Shown one piece after another: positions 20,370 through 44,974 of a DNA stretch of 64,000 bases. Source of the stretch: Halocatena salina (lineage in GTDB: Archaea > Halobacteriota > Halobacteria > Halobacteriales > Haloarculaceae); contig NZ_CP096019.1 of the NCBI RefSeq assembly GCF_023115355.1, positions 744,001 through 808,000 on the forward strand. The letters are read 5' to 3'. Made by a program: the position numbers and the translations under genes. Position 1 is the first letter of the stretch, and every line of letters starts with the position of its first letter. Below the pieces are notes generated by a model. It saw only the letters and a program-made list of their open reading frames with translations. It did no database searches and was not told the DNA's origin.

Positions 20370-21086
20370 TCAGCGGAGATCCATCGACCGAAACCACAGC
20401 CGACCAAGGCTGCTGAACAGGAAGGCGACGACGAGTAACAGTACCCCATCGGTCACAGCGTAGGCGTTCGTGACAAGGATCGCTGTCGGGTCGTAGTAGT
20501 GTGCCGGACAGAGCACGCTGAGCCACTCGTAGGCCGTCCCATCAACCTGGCGCGTGAACACGAAGAGGGCGAGTACGACCGCTGCGCTTGCCACAGACGC
20601 GCGAGTACTCGTGGATGCGCCGGCGGAGAATAGCAGACCGATCGACGCACACACGAGGAGATACGGGATCGAAAACGCGTGCACGGCAAGGAGGTTCATC
20701 GGCTGAACCGGAGTACCGATGACGATGGTGCCGAGATAGACGATGATGCAGACGACACCGTTGATCAGAAGCATTACGATGAGTAACGCGAGAAACCGTT
20801 GGCGGACGATCGATGAGCGAGAGATGGGCGCGGACAACAGCACGTCAACACGGTCATGTTCGACATCCTTGGCCAGCAACGACCCGGCTCTGTACGCGAA
20901 GTAACTCCCGAGACCGAGCATCCAGCCGAACTGGTATAGCCCCGACGCGAGAAACGCACCGATCGTTTGAGAGCCGTTTTCGAACACGATAGCAAGCGCG
21001 GCGAGCGCGATCCCCGCGAAACCAGTCGTGAGCGCGACCGTTTCCAGGCGACGACGGCGTATCTGGTGTCTCGCGATTTCAAACAT
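20370..21086 (-). CDS. ABC-2 type exporter permease (238 aa)
   Basis: Six predicted membrane helices; starts MFEIARHQIRRRRLETVAL, the amphipathic head common to ABC-2 permeases, and has the conserved cytosolic EHDRVDVLLSAPISRSSIVRQRF stretch after helix 2. The ATG (21086) overlaps the stop of the ATPase gene by 8 bases and is preceded by GGGAGGTGGT, a strong Shine-Dalgarno sequence within the ATPase coding end. Substrate unknown. The longer reading frame to 21332 is antisense to nothing useful and is rejected. Confidence 0.85.
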   Translation of the reverse strand: MFEIARHQIRRRRLETVALTTGFAGIALAALAIVFENGSQTIGAFLASGLYQFGWMLGLGSYFAYRAGSLLAKDVEHDRVDVLLSAPISRSSIVRQRFLALLIVMLLINGVVCIIVYLGTIVIGTPVQPMNLLAVHAFSIPYLLVCASIGLLFSAGASTSTRASVASAAVVLALFVFTRQVDGTAYEWLSVLCPAHYYDPTAILVTNAYAVTDGVLLLVVAFLFSSLGRLWFRSMDLR

Positions 21087-22029
21087 CCACACCACCTCCC
21101 TTTCCCAGCCGCGTGCCATACCAGTGGGCCAGGAGTTCTTGGAGCGGTGCCTCCTCGATGGTGAGGTCACAGATCGTGTACGACGAGAGTGCTTCGAGCA
21201 ACGTCTCGTACGTTCCGGCGTACACGAAGCGAACGGTCGTTCGGGTCGTGCGTCCCTCATCGGATGAACGGCGATCCGTGTGCTCGGTTTCGACGCTGTA
21301 GCCGTGTTCGAAACTGAACGCATCGGGGGCAACCGGATCGGAGGTCACAAACCGAACGATCCGTGGTCCTCGGTCGGGGAGCTGTCGGCTCGCTCGAAAA
21401 TCGATGAGGTGACCGTTGCGGAGGATGCCGACCCGATCACAGAGGATACACGCGGTGGTGAGACTGCACGAGACGACAAAAAGGGTCGTGCCCCGCTGTC
21501 GTTCGGCATCGAGAAACGTCCAAAGCTGTTCTTGTGTCGATGGATCGAGTCCTACCGTCGGTTCGTCCAAAATAACGAGCTCCGGGTCGTGCATAAACGC
21601 CACCACCGTAGCGAGGAGCCGTCGCTGCTCGGACGTGTACGTGCGGATCGATTTGTCGAGCTGTGAGTCGAGTGCAAACTGTTCGAGTAGTTGTTCGCTA
21701 CGCTCGTCGTCTTTGAGCGAGGCGTGGTAGGCGAGGAGCTGGTTTCCGGTGAGTGACTCGTCGAACGACGGTTCACTTGGAAGGTATCCGATATCCTGTT
21801 TCATCGCCGTCCGTTCTCGACGGTGTCCGATGTCGTACTCGAGAACCGACGCCTGACCGCGTGAGGGGGCCTGTAGCCCCATCAGTGTTCGAACCGTCGT
21901 GGTTTTCCCGGCCCCCTCCGGCCCTAGGAGGCCGAACACCTCTCCCGGCTCGACGGTGAACGTGAGCCCTTCTATCCCTCGATCGTCGCCATAGTATTTC
22001 GTTAGGTTGTCCACATCCATGCACGCCAT
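21079..22029 (-). CDS. ABC exporter ATP-binding protein with degenerate motifs (316 aa)
   Basis: Walker A GPEGAGKTT (about 36-44), Q-loop region and Walker B LVILDEPTVGLDPST are in place. However, the signature reads YTSEQRRLL instead of an SGG/SGN type. The switch region reads FVVSCSLTTACILCDRVGIL, with Cys where ABC-2 ATPases carry the switch His. A second start, M4 at 22020, is equally plausible. The 90-residue C-terminal extension is typical of ABC-2 exporter ATPases. It pairs with the overlapping permease. Loss of both residues suggests reduced or altered hydrolysis. Confidence 0.85.
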   Translation of the reverse strand: MACMDVDNLTKYYGDDRGIEGLTFTVEPGEVFGLLGPEGAGKTTTVRTLMGLQAPSRGQASVLEYDIGHRRERTAMKQDIGYLPSEPSFDESLTGNQLLAYHASLKDDERSEQLLEQFALDSQLDKSIRTYTSEQRRLLATVVAFMHDPELVILDEPTVGLDPSTQEQLWTFLDAERQRGTTLFVVSCSLTTACILCDRVGILRNGHLIDFRASRQLPDRGPRIVRFVTSDPVAPDAFSFEHGYSVETEHTDRRSSDEGRTTRTTVRFVYAGTYETLLEALSSYTICDLTIEEAPLQELLAHWYGTRLGKGGGVDV

Positions 22030-22169: not shown

Positions 22170-22940
22170 CTACTGGAGGCACTGCTCGACCCAATCGTCG
22201 AGCAATCCGATGAAAATAGCGGCAACGCTGGTTCCATCGCTCCAGATGGCCGCTTCGTGGTTAGCGCGAGCGGAACCACCGAGTGTACTCAACAACACGG
22301 TTTCGTCGTCGACAGCGAGGACACGTCCGCACGGTCCTTCGATCATCGTCTGTTCGGTAACGACGTGGGTGTCGATGGAGCTGACAGCGAACTGCTCGCA
22401 AACACTCACATCTTCGCTGAGGACGGTCACCTGAACGTCCTCGGAAACTGCTGTGAGCGTCTCGACGAGCACGTCGTTCACCAGTGCTTGGTCCGGTACA
22501 CCGAACAGGATTCGATCGTCCGCTCGGGTGATGAGATCGATGATGCGGTCGTCGATCGGACCTTTGCCGGTGACTGTCCAAACGCCTACCTGCGTTTCGT
22601 TGGTTGCGGCGTGTTCGCCCTGAACTGCTTGCAGGTAGTCGAAGGCGAGCCGTTCCTGTTCTTCGAGCCGCTTGCGAAGGCGTTTTCGTGCCGTTTCGAG
22701 TCCGATCGCCCGGTACTGGATCGGATTCGACTGCTGGATATCGATGAGGCCCAGCTCGCTGAGGCGTTCTGCGGCACCGTACACCTGCGACCGGGGCACG
22801 TCAGTGATACGGTCGACCTCGCTTGCAGAGCCCGTTTCGAGTTGCTGAAGCGCGATGAACACAGTGGCCTCGTACTTCGAGAGACCGAGCTGTCCGAGTG
22901 CGTCGATAGCACCGGATTGGGTCGGTGGGGAGTCAGTCAT
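22170..22940 (-). CDS. TrmB-family transcription regulator (256 aa)
   Basis: N-terminal winged helix: DALGQLGLSKYEATVFIALQ (about 11-31), then SASEVDRITDVPRSQVYGAAERLSELGLI, which is the TrmB/HTH_11 DNA-binding head. A coiled helix EEQERLAFDYLQAVQ follows, then a C-terminal domain of about 150 residues that resembles the TrmB sensor (regions around DDRILFGVPDQ and VLAVDDETVLLSTLGG). The ATG overlaps the stop of the MMPL gene by 8 bases, so the two are co-transcribed. Such regulators often sense sugars, but here the ligand is unknown. It most likely controls the MMPL promoter that it shares. Confidence 0.86.
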   Translation of the reverse strand: MTDSPPTQSGAIDALGQLGLSKYEATVFIALQQLETGSASEVDRITDVPRSQVYGAAERLSELGLIDIQQSNPIQYRAIGLETARKRLRKRLEEQERLAFDYLQAVQGEHAATNETQVGVWTVTGKGPIDDRIIDLITRADDRILFGVPDQALVNDVLVETLTAVSEDVQVTVLSEDVSVCEQFAVSSIDTHVVTEQTMIEGPCGRVLAVDDETVLLSTLGGSARANHEAAIWSDGTSVAAIFIGLLDDWVEQCLQ

Positions 22941-25900
22941 CCGTGTACGCCTCCTCTCCCGTCGTTCCAAACGATGTGGATGTGGTCTCGAACGCATCGC
23001 CGGGACCGAACCACCGCGTCCACAAGACGAGGAGACTTGGGAGAACGACGACACTCGCCAAGAACGCGTAGATGATGGTGAGTCCCGTGATGATGCCGAA
23101 CTGCTGCAGCGGCGGCAAGATTGCGAATGCGAGCACGCCAAAGCCGCCGACGGTCGTCGCGGCGCTACCGAGCAGCGCCCCACCAGTTCCGGTGACGGCC
23201 GTCTCTAGGGCCTCCCACGCTGTCGTGGCATCATCGAGTTCGAGGCTGTACCGCTCGGAGAGGTGGATACTGTAGGCGATTCCCAACCCGACAGTGAGAC
23301 TCGTGATCAACCCAGTGATGACGTTGAACGGAATGTCGAGCAGATACATCGTGCCCAGGATCCACGACACGCTGAATCCGACCGGAAGCATCGTCACGAA
23401 GCCGAGTGAGGCACTGCCGTACAGATATCGGTAGACGAACATCAAAAAGACGAACGTCACACCGAGCGTGATGAGCAGGCTCTCGATGACTGTCCGGAGC
23501 AGTTGATCCTGAACGTTCTTGAACACGATCGGCTGTCCCGTCGCGGTCGCTTGTAGGTGATCGGTCTCCTCGACGCTCGATGCGACCGTACGCATCTGGT
23601 CAGTCACTGCTTGACCACCAGCACCGCCGTCGATCGAGACGGTCATGTGGAGTGCTTCGTACTCCTCGTCGTCTGTCCGCTGGATCACCGACGACGCCGT
23701 GTCAGGGGCCGTCTCGTACAGCGAGTCGTAAACGGCATCGAGATTTCGATCCGGAACGCCGTCTCCGTCCGTATCGGCGTCAGTGAACGTCTGGTTGAAC
23801 GATTCGTTCTGTGCCGCAACATCTTCCATCGCCGACAGCGGACTCATAATATCGCTGTCGCCGTTCGAGAGGGTCGCCGTCACCTCCTTGTCGCTAGCGT
23901 TCTGTTCTGCGCGGTCGATTGCTGTCATCGTCTTCGGATCGGTGACGTTCCCTTGGATGAGCAACGCAGCGCTCGAATCCTCCCGAACGAACCGATCGTT
24001 GACGAACGACATCGACTCTTTGGCGGTGTACTCCCCTGGTGCGAACGGTTCGGGGAGCGATTCCATCCACCCATCGGGATCGTCTGCGAGGAAGTCCTCT
24101 TGGGCGAAGCTGGTATCGACCTGTGACGCACCGACACCCCCTGCGACTGTCAGGAGAAGCGCAATGAGAACCACGACGTGCGGTGCTCGGCGGGCAGCTG
24201 TTGCGCCACCGGCCAGCAGCGATCCGAGCGTCCCACCGCCGGTTCCAACCGCACGTTTGTGGCGGTCCCAGCCGCGAGCTTCGAGCAGACTGTCGAATTC
24301 GACTTTCAACGCCGGAATGAGCAGTCCGAACACCAACAGCGCAGCGGAGATCCCGACCGCACTGACGATACCGAATTCGCGTATCGGCGGCACCGAGCTG
24401 GTGAGATTCGAGAGAAAGCCGATCACTGCCGTGAGCGTCACCAACACGAGCGCGACGGCGATACCACTGAGTGCCGAGCGCATCGAGTGTCGGATGCCGT
24501 CGACGTGTTCGCGGCTCTCTCGATGGCGCATGAAGACGTGGATCGCGTAATCGATCGACAGCCCGATCAACAACACTGGCACCGCGATGAAGATCTGGTT
24601 AAACGCGATTCCGGCCCATCCCATGAAGCCGAACGTCCACACCAACACCACCCCGATACCGAACAGTCCGAGCAGGATGTCGAGGAGGTCTCGGTAAGCG
24701 ATGACGAGGACGATCAACACGAACACGAGCGCCAACGGTCCCACGATCGCCAGACTATCCGTCATCGAGCGTTCGATCTCGTCGGTGATGACCCCCGCCC
24801 CGAAAACCGACACCTGTTGTGAGTCGTAATTTTCGTGAGCGATTTCCTCGATGGCCAGCTGAGAGTTGACGAGTCGCTCGCTCGTGGTTCCACCCATCGA
24901 GGTGCCGTTGGCGCTCTGGGTGACCACGACCATCGTCGCGTTCGCTGTATCGTCTCCGGGATCGTAATCGGAAGGCATGAACGCGAACGCACCGTTGTCC
25001 TCGTCCGTGCTGTTCCCACCGAGCACTGCGTCGACGGCCGTTGTAATCTCGGATCGATTCCGCGATTCGAGCACGTCGATCTGCTTCGTGATCGACAGCT
25101 GTGTTTCGTTGTTTTGTAGCTCGTTTCGATCGGCTTCTAGCTGTTCTACCTTCTGTTCAAGCGCCTCACGATCCGATTTGAGCGCTTCAGAATCGTTTTG
25201 CAGCGCTTTTGCGCTCTGATTCAGTTCTTGAGCGTCGTTTTCGAGCTGTTGTTGTCGCTGTTCGAGTTCTCGTTTTCGCTGTTCGAGTTTTTCGCGGTCC
25301 GCTTTGAGCTGTTGGCCCCGTTCTTCTAACTGCTGACCGCGCTGTTCGAGTTTTTCACGGTCCGCTTTGAGCTGTTGGCCCCGTTCTTCTAACTGCTGAC
25401 CGCGCTGTTCGAGTTTTTCACGGTCCGCTTTGAGCTGTTGACCCTGTTCTTGCAGCTTTTGACTGCGGTTTTGTAACTCGTTGCGGCTCTGATTGAGCTT
25501 CCGGGCACGCTCTTTCAAGGCTTGTCCATCGCGCTCTAGGGCCGCTCGATCGGATTCAAGCTCGTCCGCCCGTTGTTTGAGAGTGATCGTATCGTTTGCG
25601 AGCTCGCGCTCGTCGCGTTCCAGCTGTTCTCTTCGTTGCTCGAGCTCAGAGGGGGGAACGTCCCCGGAGCGCCGGTCTTCGGCGAGTTGCTTTTCGCGGG
25701 CAGTGATGTTCTTCGCGCGCTCTTCGAGCGAATCGCGCGTCTCGTTGAGTTCATCGGCCCGTTGTTCGAGCCGCTCTCGTCGCTGGTTCAGTTCGGCACG
25801 GCTCTGATTGAGTTCGTCGGCTCGCTGTTTGAGTTCACGTGAATCCGCTTGCAGCTCCGCGCGGCTCTGGTTGAGTTCGTCGGCTCGCTGTTTGAGTTCA

Positions 25901-26586
25901 CGTGAATCCGCTTGCAACTCCGCGCGGCTCTGATTGAGTTCGTCGGCTCGCTGTTTGAGTTCGCGTGGATCCGCTTGCAACTCCGCGCGGCTCTGGTTGA
26001 GTTCGTCGGCTCGCTCCTGTAACGCCTGTCCGCGTTCTTGGAGTTCGTTGCCGTCCTGTTTGAGTTGTTCCGAGCGCTGTTGTAGCTCCTCACGGCTTTC
26101 GTTGAGCGATTCACTGCGTTGTTGTAACTCCTTTCCACGCTCTTGGAGCGATTCACCCTCTCGCTCGATCGCCTTTCCACGTTCTTGCAACGACTCCGCT
26201 CGATCCATCTGGACCGCAGCCGTCGAAACGACGCTTGCGACGCCGACAGTCGAATCGTTCGCCAGCGTTCCGTTGATAGTACTGTTGTTTTTCAACGCCC
26301 GTTGGAGCCGTAGTTGTCGGAGCAGCGACTCCTTCGAGAGGACGTTGTCATCACGGACGATGATCTGTACCGACGTGGCGTTCTCATCCTGACTCGTGAA
26401 GTTCTCCGAGATGTACTCCTCTGCTTGCGCCGCTTGTCCCGTATCGCTCTGAAACGAATCGAGCGAGGAACTCTGTGTGATCATCGGCGCGCCTGCTCCC
26501 ATGACGACCGTCATGAGCAACAACGCGACGATGACTGGACGGCGATATCGCGTTACACCTGCCGATAGACGCTCTAATACACCCAT
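22933..26586 (-). CDS. MMPL/RND transporter with giant extracellular coiled coil (1217 aa)
   Basis: Two copies of the RND/MMPL layout: helix 1 at about 15-36, a group of helices from about 605 to 770 (SLAIVGPLALVFVLIVLVIAYR, LSIDYAIHVFMRHRE), a second single helix near 810 and a second group from about 1030 to 1205 (LGIAYSIHLSERYSLELDD). The first outer loop is unusual. Residues about 127-497 are coiled coil built from 21-residue tandem units (RELKQRADELNQSRAELQAD, then QLKADREKLEQRGQQLEERG), with at least 13 N-X-S/T sequons. It starts after GAGGTGA, a strong Shine-Dalgarno site. Substrate unknown: lipid or drug export is common in this family. Confidence 0.9.
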   Translation of the reverse strand: MGVLERLSAGVTRYRRPVIVALLLMTVVMGAGAPMITQSSSLDSFQSDTGQAAQAEEYISENFTSQDENATSVQIIVRDDNVLSKESLLRQLRLQRALKNNSTINGTLANDSTVGVASVVSTAAVQMDRAESLQERGKAIEREGESLQERGKELQQRSESLNESREELQQRSEQLKQDGNELQERGQALQERADELNQSRAELQADPRELKQRADELNQSRAELQADSRELKQRADELNQSRAELQADSRELKQRADELNQSRAELNQRRERLEQRADELNETRDSLEERAKNITAREKQLAEDRRSGDVPPSELEQRREQLERDERELANDTITLKQRADELESDRAALERDGQALKERARKLNQSRNELQNRSQKLQEQGQQLKADREKLEQRGQQLEERGQQLKADREKLEQRGQQLEERGQQLKADREKLEQRKRELEQRQQQLENDAQELNQSAKALQNDSEALKSDREALEQKVEQLEADRNELQNNETQLSITKQIDVLESRNRSEITTAVDAVLGGNSTDEDNGAFAFMPSDYDPGDDTANATMVVVTQSANGTSMGGTTSERLVNSQLAIEEIAHENYDSQQVSVFGAGVITDEIERSMTDSLAIVGPLALVFVLIVLVIAYRDLLDILLGLFGIGVVLVWTFGFMGWAGIAFNQIFIAVPVLLIGLSIDYAIHVFMRHRESREHVDGIRHSMRSALSGIAVALVLVTLTAVIGFLSNLTSSVPPIREFGIVSAVGISAALLVFGLLIPALKVEFDSLLEARGWDRHKRAVGTGGGTLGSLLAGGATAARRAPHVVVLIALLLTVAGGVGASQVDTSFAQEDFLADDPDGWMESLPEPFAPGEYTAKESMSFVNDRFVREDSSAALLIQGNVTDPKTMTAIDRAEQNASDKEVTATLSNGDSDIMSPLSAMEDVAAQNESFNQTFTDADTDGDGVPDRNLDAVYDSLYETAPDTASSVIQRTDDEEYEALHMTVSIDGGAGGQAVTDQMRTVASSVEETDHLQATATGQPIVFKNVQDQLLRTVIESLLITLGVTFVFLMFVYRYLYGSASLGFVTMLPVGFSVSWILGTMYLLDIPFNVITGLITSLTVGLGIAYSIHLSERYSLELDDATTAWEALETAVTGTGGALLGSAATTVGGFGVLAFAILPPLQQFGIITGLTIIYAFLASVVVLPSLLVLWTRWFGPGDAFETTSTSFGTTGEEAYTDD
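25281..25469 (-). repeat. 63-bp tandem repeat, second array in the MMPL coiled coil
   Basis: Three adjacent 63-bp units, starting at 25281, 25344 and 25407, are nearly identical in the first two and begin to diverge in the third. Each encodes 21 residues of the type DREKLEQRGQQLEERGQQLK, so the array is in frame and lengthens the coil by three heptads per copy. Confidence 0.85.
25801..26014 (-). repeat. 63-bp tandem repeat, first array in the MMPL coiled coil
   Basis: Three full 63-bp copies start at 25801, 25864 and 25927, with a fourth partial copy from 25990. They differ at only a few bases and encode RADELNQSRAELQADSRELK-type units of 21 residues, each with one NQS sequon. Near-identity implies recent expansion or continuing gene conversion. 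Confidence 0.9.
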
Positions 26587-26761: not shown

Positions 26762-27271
26762 TCAAAACAGCTGTAGCACGCCGATCGTAACCAAAGCGAG
26801 CGCGGATTCGAAGACGACCGTTCCGAGTGCGGAGCTGACGACGAAGCGGTGTGTGTCCAACCGGGCGAACCCGGCCGGGATGGTACACATCCCTCGGGTG
26901 AACGGGAGCGTGTTGCTCAGAACGACGGACAGCATTCCCCACCGATCGAACCATCGATCGAAACGGTCGAGTCGGTCTTCGGACACACGGATCCACCGGT
27001 GTTCGAACAACCGGTCACGCCCTCCGCGTTTTGCGAACAGAAACAGCGCAGTCTGGCCAACCGTCGCCCCCACCGCAGCGACACCGATGACGACGGCGAT
27101 CTCGAACGGTGAGTGGCTCGTGAGGAGATAGATCGCTCCCGGAACCAACGATTCACTGGGAGCGAAATACAACAACATCGCCCCTTCGAGAACGAAAATA
27201 CCGAACAAGGCGATGTATCCATGCTCTATGAGTAATCCTTCAACGAACGCGGAAAGTTCAGTCAACGACAT
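26762..27271 (-). CDS. DedA/SNARE-associated (VTT domain) membrane protein (169 aa)
   Basis: The pattern HGYIALFGIFVLEGAMLLYF followed by PSESLVPGAIYL, then GATVGQTALFLFAKRGGRDRL and SNTLPFTRGMCTIPAGFARL is that of DedA/VTT family proteins, which act in membrane lipid (undecaprenyl phosphate or phospholipid) translocation. About five hydrophobic helices; length slightly below the usual 200. The start is ATG 27271. The gene is isolated: 175 bases separate it from the MMPL gene and 436 bases from the sulfatase-like gene. Confidence 0.82.
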   Translation of the reverse strand: MSLTELSAFVEGLLIEHGYIALFGIFVLEGAMLLYFAPSESLVPGAIYLLTSHSPFEIAVVIGVAAVGATVGQTALFLFAKRGGRDRLFEHRWIRVSEDRLDRFDRWFDRWGMLSVVLSNTLPFTRGMCTIPAGFARLDTHRFVVSSALGTVVFESALALVTIGVLQLF

Positions 27272-43385: not shown

Positions 43386-44519
43386 TTAGCCGAACAACGG
43401 TCCCAGAATTCCAGACAGTATTCCGTCTTCCTCGTCATCGGTCGGCGTCGGCAGGGGAGTTCCGTTCGGAACGGAAGGTGATTCTGTCACAGCTTCCGGC
43501 TCATCCGACGCAGTAACGTTCCGGTCGGTCCGGTCGTGCTTGGTGGTTCGAGCCACGCTTGATGTCGACTCAGTCCGAGCCTCGTTTCCCTGACTGAAAA
43601 TCCACGAGTCCGATTCCGTTGTGGTCGGCGCCGTCGTGTCGCTGGTCTCTGATTCTACCGGCGTGGTCTCGTCAGTGGTGTTGGTCAGCGTCTCATTGGT
43701 GGTGTTCGTGGTGTTGGTCAGTGTCTCATTGGTGGTGTTCGTGGTGTTGGTCAGTGTCTCATTAGTCGTGTTCGTGGCGTTGGTCAGCGTCTCATTGGTG
43801 GTGTTCGTGGTGTTGGTCAGCGTCTCATTAGTCGTGTTCGTGGCGTTGGTCAGCGTCTCATTAGTCGTGTTCGTGGTGTTGGTCAGCGTCTCGTTGGTGT
43901 CATTCGTTTCAGTAGAGTTGTTGATCCCGAGTTCGGATCGGGAGGTGTTCGTCTCCGAAAGGACCTCCGAGAGTTCCGGACCATTGACGCTCGGTGGCTC
44001 ACCACCGGACGAAATCGAAAGTCCCTCGGTTTCTAAGTTGTCGACGCCAAGCCAGTAGGCTTTGAGCGTCGTCGGCAACGGATTCGGAACCCCAGGCGGT
44101 AGACAAATGCCGAGCGTCGCCAGCGTGTTGACCAGCGGGTTCTCACCGTTCGTGTACAAGACGAGATCCCCGCTCACGTCTCCTGATGGGAAACTGATAT
44201 GTGACTCGACGCTTCCCTCCTTCCCGAGATAAATATCAACATCCTTCAACGTCGAATCAGAGACTGTGACCTTGTTCACGTCGGATTCGATCTTCTCGGC
44301 ACATATCTGTCCTCCATCTGCTATATTCGGATGGATCGCACCCGTTCGAACCGTGAACGTCGCGCGATCATCGACACCATCGGGCGATTCTTGGGCCGAC
44401 GTGACGAACACGAGACTCCCACTCGTGACGAGCAACAGCGAGAACACACACGCGAGCGCAGCACGAAACGTTCCAACCGATCGAACTCGTCGTTTGAGCC
44501 TGTCTATCGACATTTTCAT
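43386..44519 (-). CDS. Secreted sequon-rich repeat protein of the DUF6230/DUF6114 cluster (377 aa)
   Basis: Signal-type helix at about 20-42 (CVFSLLLVTSGSLVFVTSAQ), a folded outer domain to about 175, and then seven 11-residue units of the type NETLTNTTNTT. Each unit offers three N-X-T sequons, so about twenty lie in a row. A polar tail follows, ending GILSGILGPLFG. The ATG at 44519 overlaps the DUF6114 stop in ATGA fashion, so it belongs to that operon. The gene looks like a heavily N-glycosylated stalk or surface component. No family recognised for the head domain. Confidence 0.72.
   Translation of the reverse strand: MKMSIDRLKRRVRSVGTFRAALACVFSLLLVTSGSLVFVTSAQESPDGVDDRATFTVRTGAIHPNIADGGQICAEKIESDVNKVTVSDSTLKDVDIYLGKEGSVESHISFPSGDVSGDLVLYTNGENPLVNTLATLGICLPPGVPNPLPTTLKAYWLGVDNLETEGLSISSGGEPPSVNGPELSEVLSETNTSRSELGINNSTETNDTNETLTNTTNTTNETLTNATNTTNETLTNTTNTTNETLTNATNTTNETLTNTTNTTNETLTNTTNTTNETLTNTTDETTPVESETSDTTAPTTTESDSWIFSQGNEARTESTSSVARTTKHDRTDRNVTASDEPEAVTESPSVPNGTPLPTPTDDEEDGILSGILGPLFG
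43684..43905 (-). repeat. 33-bp in-frame tandem repeats
   Basis: Seven copies start at 43684, 43717, 43750, 43783, 43816, 43849 and 43882, exactly 33 bases apart, with a few T/C and A/G changes. They encode 11-residue sequon-rich units. The spacing and in-frame nature rule out a CRISPR array. Confidence 0.9.
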
Positions 44520-44974
44520 CGCCACTTGTTCACAAGCCCGGAAACACCCATGTCCTCCGAGTCCTCGTCGTTTGAGTCTGCGTCCTCACTGGTGTTCCAG
44601 CTAAACGGACTGTTCTCTTCGACCAGATCCGAATCCCACGCAATACAGAGATTCGATCCGATGAGCGAGAGTATCATTCCAATGAGCAATCCCCCGAGAG
44701 TCCCCAACAAGGAAGTAAACGAAAACACGACACCGGCGTAACCGAGTATCGTCGAGTATTCCGGTCTCGTCAAAGAAAATACCCCGATCAAGAAGATAAA
44801 CGAAGCGTTCACTAGCCCGATGTAGGCGACCGTGTTGCCTCCAATGAAAATCGTGTCCTTTGCGATGAACATCGGCACATAGAACATGAACACGCTCCCC
44901 AGAAGCAGGAACACGCCACCGAGCACCGGACGACGCTGTCGCCACTGTTCGAACTGTTGTCGTCGGTCGCTCAT
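44516..44974 (-). CDS. DUF6114-like membrane protein (152 aa)
   Basis: Four hydrophobic helices after a charged head QQFEQWRQRRPVLGGVFLLLG, a pattern I recall as DUF6114, a family found beside DUF6230 in Actinobacteria and haloarchaea. The C-terminus is acidic, with SNDEDSEDMG. I prefer the ATG at 44974 (MSDRRQQFEQW) over 44998. It lies between the DUF6230-like gene and the sequon-rich gene. It is likely the membrane member of a small surface system of unknown task. Confidence 0.78.
   Translation of the reverse strand: MSDRRQQFEQWRQRRPVLGGVFLLLGSVFMFYVPMFIAKDTIFIGGNTVAYIGLVNASFIFLIGVFSLTRPEYSTILGYAGVVFSFTSLLGTLGGLLIGMILSLIGSNLCIAWDSDLVEENSPFSWNTSEDADSNDEDSEDMGVSGLVNKWR

Follow-up and report, generated by a model that had tools for sequence, protein, structure and literature searches.

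How single-membrane archaea pass amphiphiles or siderophores through a tight S-layer is an open question, on which a transporter gene in the 64,000-nucleotide stretch of Halocatena DNA analysed here (the window) may bear; its product carries a very long coil outside the membrane. The S-layer pores of Haloferax are about 13 Å wide (as excerpted in PMC8640222), and members of the Halocatena lineage are described as haloarchaea that form hyphae and spores and have an S-layer, whose glycoprotein is distinct (PMC10067837). The MMPL/RND (HAE3-like) reading frame that the initial annotation placed at 22933-26586 was recovered on the minus strand, with an ATG start and 1217 residues, and is open in all seven Halocatena genomes (7/7).

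The core of the protein is that of an RND transporter. The MMPL family model PF03176 matched in two stretches with 158 bits, against a gathering cut-off of 20.5. The HAE3 transporter model TIGR00921 scored 234.4 bits, below its curated cut-off of 351.9, with the best stretch at residues 588-1188; the coil insert may break this whole-protein match. A structural model of residues 1-1195 had MmpL5, MmpL4 and NPC1L1 as its nearest solved structures (Foldseek, E 4.3e-24 against MmpL5), consistent with an RND fold of the MmpL/NPC1 type, and the model of a Natrialba asiatica relative superposed on MmpL5 with a Z score of 42.6 and an rmsd of 4.8 over 695 aligned residues. At a threshold of E 1e-170, the transporter part had relatives in 85 of the 194 Halobacteria genomes searched. 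For comparison, 141 loci were collected as best matches, and therefore not as a random sample; these gave 128 distinct genes, of which 126 were compared after two had been dropped for a poor N-terminal anchor. The proton relay of MmpL3 consists of one Asp-Tyr pair in TM4 and another in TM10. By pattern search, the TM4 Asp-Tyr was found in 118 of the 128 genes and Ala-Tyr, where MmpL3 has the TM10 Asp-Tyr, in at least 111 of 128; the two occurred together in 109, while Asp-Tyr was found at both positions in one gene.

The coil is an insert in this core. Two paralogs from the same genome (867 and 818 residues), both without it, align with the window protein over residues 8-132 and from residue 496/500 onward, and have 39 and 9 residues where the window protein has 381. 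Anchored by alignment of its flanks, the insert spans 25069..26211 on the minus strand (residues 126-506) and lies in the first extracytoplasmic loop, because it follows TM1 (about 14-39) and precedes TM2, which starts near residue 606. Inserts of more than 100 residues were present at the same place in 112 of the 126 best-match genes compared, 14 being hairpin-less, and the mycobacterial MmpL hairpin is analogous; the initial view that the layout departs from normal RND/MMPL design was thus not supported.

In the window, the end of the transporter gene is overlapped by a TrmB-family regulator gene (22170..22940, minus strand; PF01978, 56.8 bits), downstream of which lie genes for an ABC transporter ATPase (21079..22029, minus strand; read from the sequence) and an ABC-2-type permease (20370..21086, minus strand; PF12679, 44 bits). 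Directly upstream, on the same strand, is a gene for a VTT/DedA-family membrane protein (26762..27271, minus strand; PF09335, 53.4 bits). Of the 112 hairpin genes, 77 are immediately followed by a TrmB-family gene in the same orientation and 28 have a TetR gene within 1.5 kb, so that TrmB or TetR stands beside 93 of 112. The DedA gene adjoins the transporter in all six distinct Halocatena loci and in none of the other loci compared; the ABC ATPase gene likewise lies downstream on the transporter's strand in all six. The ABC pair has this arrangement only in Halocatena, although a few other loci have relatives of it on the opposite strand, no more than 5 kb away. Together with the regulators beside the gene, the conserved core argues for a transporter that works and is regulated. 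Elsewhere in the window, a 379-residue ORF with a GTG start (43386-44525, minus strand) looks secreted and contains a 33-bp array of 6.8 copies (43675-43899), its 11-residue Asn/Thr units holding several sequons each.

The insert had been described initially as a long coil outside the membrane. Its helical and extracytoplasmic character was upheld, but a single strand was rejected: the chain must return, because the coil starts and finishes beside the same porter domain, and a mid-coil turn motif (GDVPP, GTVPP, GNLTD or GTLND) is kept in all eight long-coil sequences, six from Halocatena and two from Haladaptatus plasmids. Sequence and modelling together give good support to an antiparallel hairpin, with arms of 182 and 198 residues, that is predicted to fold back at GDVPP (25651..25665, minus strand; residues 308-312). 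The ascending arm 1 (25666..26211, minus strand; residues 126-307, 182 residues) has Leu heptads in which one position is hydrophobic at a frequency of 0.96, and the descending arm 2 (25069..25662, minus strand) comprises the 198 residues 309-506. AlphaFold2 (AF2) predicted two helices, 176-307 and 312-440, joined by a turn at 308-311. Confidence in this model was modest (mean pLDDT 75.8, pTM 0.53), and its weak stretches, 162-183 and 437-454, lie at roughly equal distance from the turn. The AF2 model of the Natrialba asiatica relative was cleaner (pLDDT about 85-93), with a helix at 116-177, three short tip helices and a helix at 235-272.

The heptads of the eight long-coil sequences fit this arrangement. 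Position d is Leu in 91 % of arm 1 and 96 % of arm 2, and position a is Ala, Gly or Ser in 68 % and 53 %, respectively. At position g, which pairs with g across the strands of antiparallel coils, arm 1 has Arg in 56 % of cases and arm 2 has Asp in 45 %. Summed charge complementarity peaked at one shared turn-relative register of 51 in seven of the eight sequences, this register being second in the eighth. After shuffling the heptad order of arm 2, the observed charge score was reached in 0, 5, 0, 5, 2 and 0 of 2000 shuffles for the six Halocatena sequences and in 353 and 12 of 2000 for the two from Haladaptatus. The same charge-register test found no common offset in the shorter-armed families, and a rule on charge register covering every tip family did not emerge.

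Each arm contains one of the two separate 63-bp arrays proposed initially. Array 1 (25799..26015, minus strand; TRF, 3.4 copies, 96 % match) lies within arm 1, and array 2 (25277..25451, minus strand; TRF, 2.8 copies, 97 % match), whose units are unlike those of array 1 in sequence, lies within arm 2. By arithmetic from the charge register, array 1 would face array 2, with coil positions 65-137 opposite 233-305 and array 2 at 253-311; paired tandem arrays would thus sit on facing arms of one hairpin. Repeats of 63-bp period were present in both arms of all six Halocatena sequences, and near both coil ends in Saliphagus infecundisoli, a member of another genus (L163). The NQS sequon assigned to the units of array 1 does recur there, and the count of N-x-S/T sequons in the coil, 13, agreed with the claimed minimum of 13. 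Shuffles of the same residues gave 1.5 ± 1.1, and none of 5000 reached 13. Sequon enrichment holds across the hairpin family, with observed and expected numbers of 258 and 48 for relatives with tip A, 190 and 27 for tip B, 48 and 8 for tip C, and 75 and 8 for Halocatena. No Cys was found on inspection of the coil sequence of the window protein.

We consider it probable that this is an RND exporter under an adjacent regulator, in which the hairpin serves as a rigid stalk of set length reaching towards or through the S-layer. An RND-fold transporter of the MmpL/NPC1 type bears the two-helix antiparallel hairpin in its first outer loop, where the hairpin would act as a spacer that lifts the far end of the protein as high as the S-layer or beyond it. 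The end so lifted would be a helical tip domain in most relatives, and a bare turn in Halocatena, from which that domain is absent, and in the two Haladaptatus plasmid genes. Under the control of the adjacent TrmB or TetR protein, the transporter would export its predicted cargo, a compound that is amphiphilic or resembles a siderophore. The stalk may either dock on the S-layer or guide release beyond it.

The main rival, that three hairpins pack as a closed helical tube and so conduct substrate outward, as proposed for MmpL5, is a possible but rather doubtful reading. It gains from the core fold, nearest to MmpL5 and MmpL4 among PDB chains (Foldseek), from the 196-residue antiparallel coil of MmpL5, modelled as a 13-nm six-helix tube and reported to be required for efflux (PMC12501195), and from the report that the MmpL10 coil drives oligomers (PMC12183618). 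However, the window hairpin lies in loop 1 and not in periplasmic domain 2, and no MmpS-like partner was found beside the transporter gene in a search that did not include fold comparison. Helical barrels usually need more than one hydrophobic position per heptad, whereas the long coils compared here have a single one.

With a helix rise of 0.148 nm per residue, arm 1 of the window species would stand about 27 nm tall, that of its relatives 30 nm, and the arms of the common tip-bearing families 3-9 nm; because it is made of two antiparallel arms, the coil rises about half as far as one strand of equal length would. Even so, the initial suggestion of a reach towards the S-layer survives, since the estimated 27 nm is comparable to or beyond the distance of the S-layer from the membrane in another haloarchaeon, Haloferax volcanii (20.4 ± 2.7 nm, reported in PMC7838353); the literature consulted gave no corresponding value for Halocatena. 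An arm taller than that distance would also suit a strut that props or tethers the S-layer, with transport secondary or lost, as would the abundant sequons and the retention of a tip domain in most relatives. Such a strut is nevertheless unlikely, given the strong conservation of the transporter core, the regulators that adjoin the gene and the arms of just 3-9 nm in many relatives.

Profile models from 31 seeds were used to locate the tips, and arm length was taken as the distance from fixed flanking anchors to the tip. Among the Halobacteria relatives, arm 1 was almost always a multiple of seven residues (45 of 48 genes with tip A, 31 of 31 with tip B and 14 of 14 with tip C) and arm 2 was usually four residues longer, exactly so in 34 of 48, 22 of 31 and 4 of 14, respectively. 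Arm 1/arm 2 lengths for tip A (n=48) were 42/46 in 18 genes, 49/53 in seven, 63/67 in five, 21/25 in four and other pairs in 14, five of which were within one residue of the common pairs. For tip B (n=31, leaving out L174_0, with a misplaced tip) they were 28/32 in 16, 28/36 in seven, 56/60 in three, 42/46 in two, 28/31 in two and 49/53 in one. Tip C (n=14) was looser, with 14/18 in four genes and ten other pairs. More than one tip was found in eight genes and no recognised tip in several. The tipless Halocatena arms measure 182/198 in H. pleomorpha as well as in the window species, and 203/219 in the four others, a difference of 21 residues in each arm.

Some coils in the set were longer or differently built. 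Those of L106 and L107, on Haladaptatus plasmids, are tipless and Halocatena-like, with 408 residues and an accompanying TrmB gene, and a Halococcaceae MAG (L151) has a Glu-rich coil of 316 residues with nearly perfect Leu heptads and no recognised tip. The coils of L146 and L156 reach 622 and 797 residues. Four genes (L049, L166, L167 and L180) have coils of 403-458 residues with three consecutive tip domains joined by linkers of 37-51 residues. Triplication of the whole hairpin was rejected for these genes, the segments between tips being too short for two full arms; because these segments are short and look like unbroken heptads, a zigzag is likelier.

Phylogenetic contrasts were calculated on a tree of the post-coil part, which was built by a quick method and has some open forks and flagged long branches. 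Changes in the two arms were tightly matched for tip B (slope 1.00, r 1.00) and less so for tip C (slope 0.99, r 0.79). All 48 tip-A rows gave a slope of 0.67 (r 0.66), and a slope of 0.998 (r 0.999) was obtained when nine irregular rows were left out, namely L078, L079, L080 and L158, with unmatched arms (14/21, 13/34, 55/30 and 35/46), and L087, L088, L089, L092 and L093, with additional residues close to the tip. L159 also has unmatched arms (28/54). Nine tree contrasts, hand-picked and not all fully independent, shift both arms equally, by 7, 14, 14, 14, 21, 21, 21, 28 and 28 residues, and random re-pairing of their changes gave such a match in 0.00022 of draws. Hairpin length in the sequences compared thus mostly changes in paired heptads, from 7 + 7 up to 28 + 28; as the arms keep one register, an indel in one would have its counterpart in the other arm.

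Such gain or loss of arm length would draw on the two 21-residue arrays that face each other as its DNA source. The recent length change read from them initially was not supported as such, as the sister species H. pleomorpha has identical arms (182/198) despite diverged array units. Between the window species and H. pleomorpha, core units of arm 2 had an identity of 0.97 within species and 0.75 between them, and those of arm 1 had 0.96/0.93 within and 0.88 between; core units were chosen after a first comparison, with edge units included, had shown no excess of within-species identity. Since core units resemble each other more closely inside a species than across the two, yet arm lengths are identical, the DNA appears to turn over at constant length. 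Slippage during replication of low-complexity DNA, with length under no selection, would account for near-identical 63-bp units that are closer within than between the two species, but is highly improbable given that arm lengths stay the same during this turnover and that both arms change by equal heptads in the hand-picked, partly dependent contrasts above.

The rigid stalk remains our preferred reading, and as stalks of about 3 to 30 nm stand on one transporter core, their role is testable by altering one arm or both. An extension that we put forward tentatively, and think much less probable than the stalk itself, is a single-gene, envelope-spanning archaeal export machine, in which an adjustable hairpin would carry cargo through the S-layer, its length fitted to the envelope thickness of the species in matched heptad steps (21 + 21 in Halocatena).

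Several known systems resemble parts of this design. The haloarchaeal RND protein HVO_A0467 of Haloferax volcanii also has MMPL domains and is described as a candidate siderophore exporter paired with a separate Ig-fold fibre gene, HVO_A0466 (PMC11349517). COG1361-type fibre genes, probably the same as HVO_A0466, were in contrast adjacent to none of the 112 hairpin genes. Nor did they adjoin any of the 14 genes in this set that have no hairpin, so their absence goes with the clade and is not tied to the hairpin alone. A COG1361 fibre gene does stand beside a hairpin-less RND gene in Haloarcula marismortui, and the 818-residue hairpin-less paralog in the window genome (L009, contig C4) adjoins one too. 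The periplasmic adaptor EmrA brings a long coiled-coil hairpin (127 Å) to an efflux system (PMC4158417), but as a separate adaptor protein of two-membrane bacteria, outside the pump, whereas the window hairpin is part of the pump. Symmetric seven-residue insertions and deletions are known from the cytoplasmic hairpins of chemoreceptors (MCPs; PMC5907407). Symmetric heptad indels in both arms were found here as well, with irregular genes such as L078 and L159 as exceptions, but in a hairpin that a transporter carries in an extracytoplasmic loop and not in a cytoplasmic signalling domain.

The closest likeness is to mycobacterial MmpL4, MmpL5 and MmpL10, which share with the window protein an RND core fold and an antiparallel coiled-coil hairpin in an outer loop. 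The MmpL5 insert, of 196 residues, lies in periplasmic domain 2 (PD2, residues 493-682) and has a disulfide at its tip (PMC12501195), whereas that of the window protein is a first-loop insert of 381 residues between TM1 and TM2, with no coil Cys and with a length that varies in paired heptads. Membership of the MmpL5 type is rejected on this insertion site; the possibility that the two work alike is not. Among open-licence PMC papers, none was found on a haloarchaeal RND/MMPL hairpin family. MmpL5 offers a similar hairpin that is shorter and sits in another loop, and the family described here shows paired heptad indels on the outer hairpin of an archaeal transporter.
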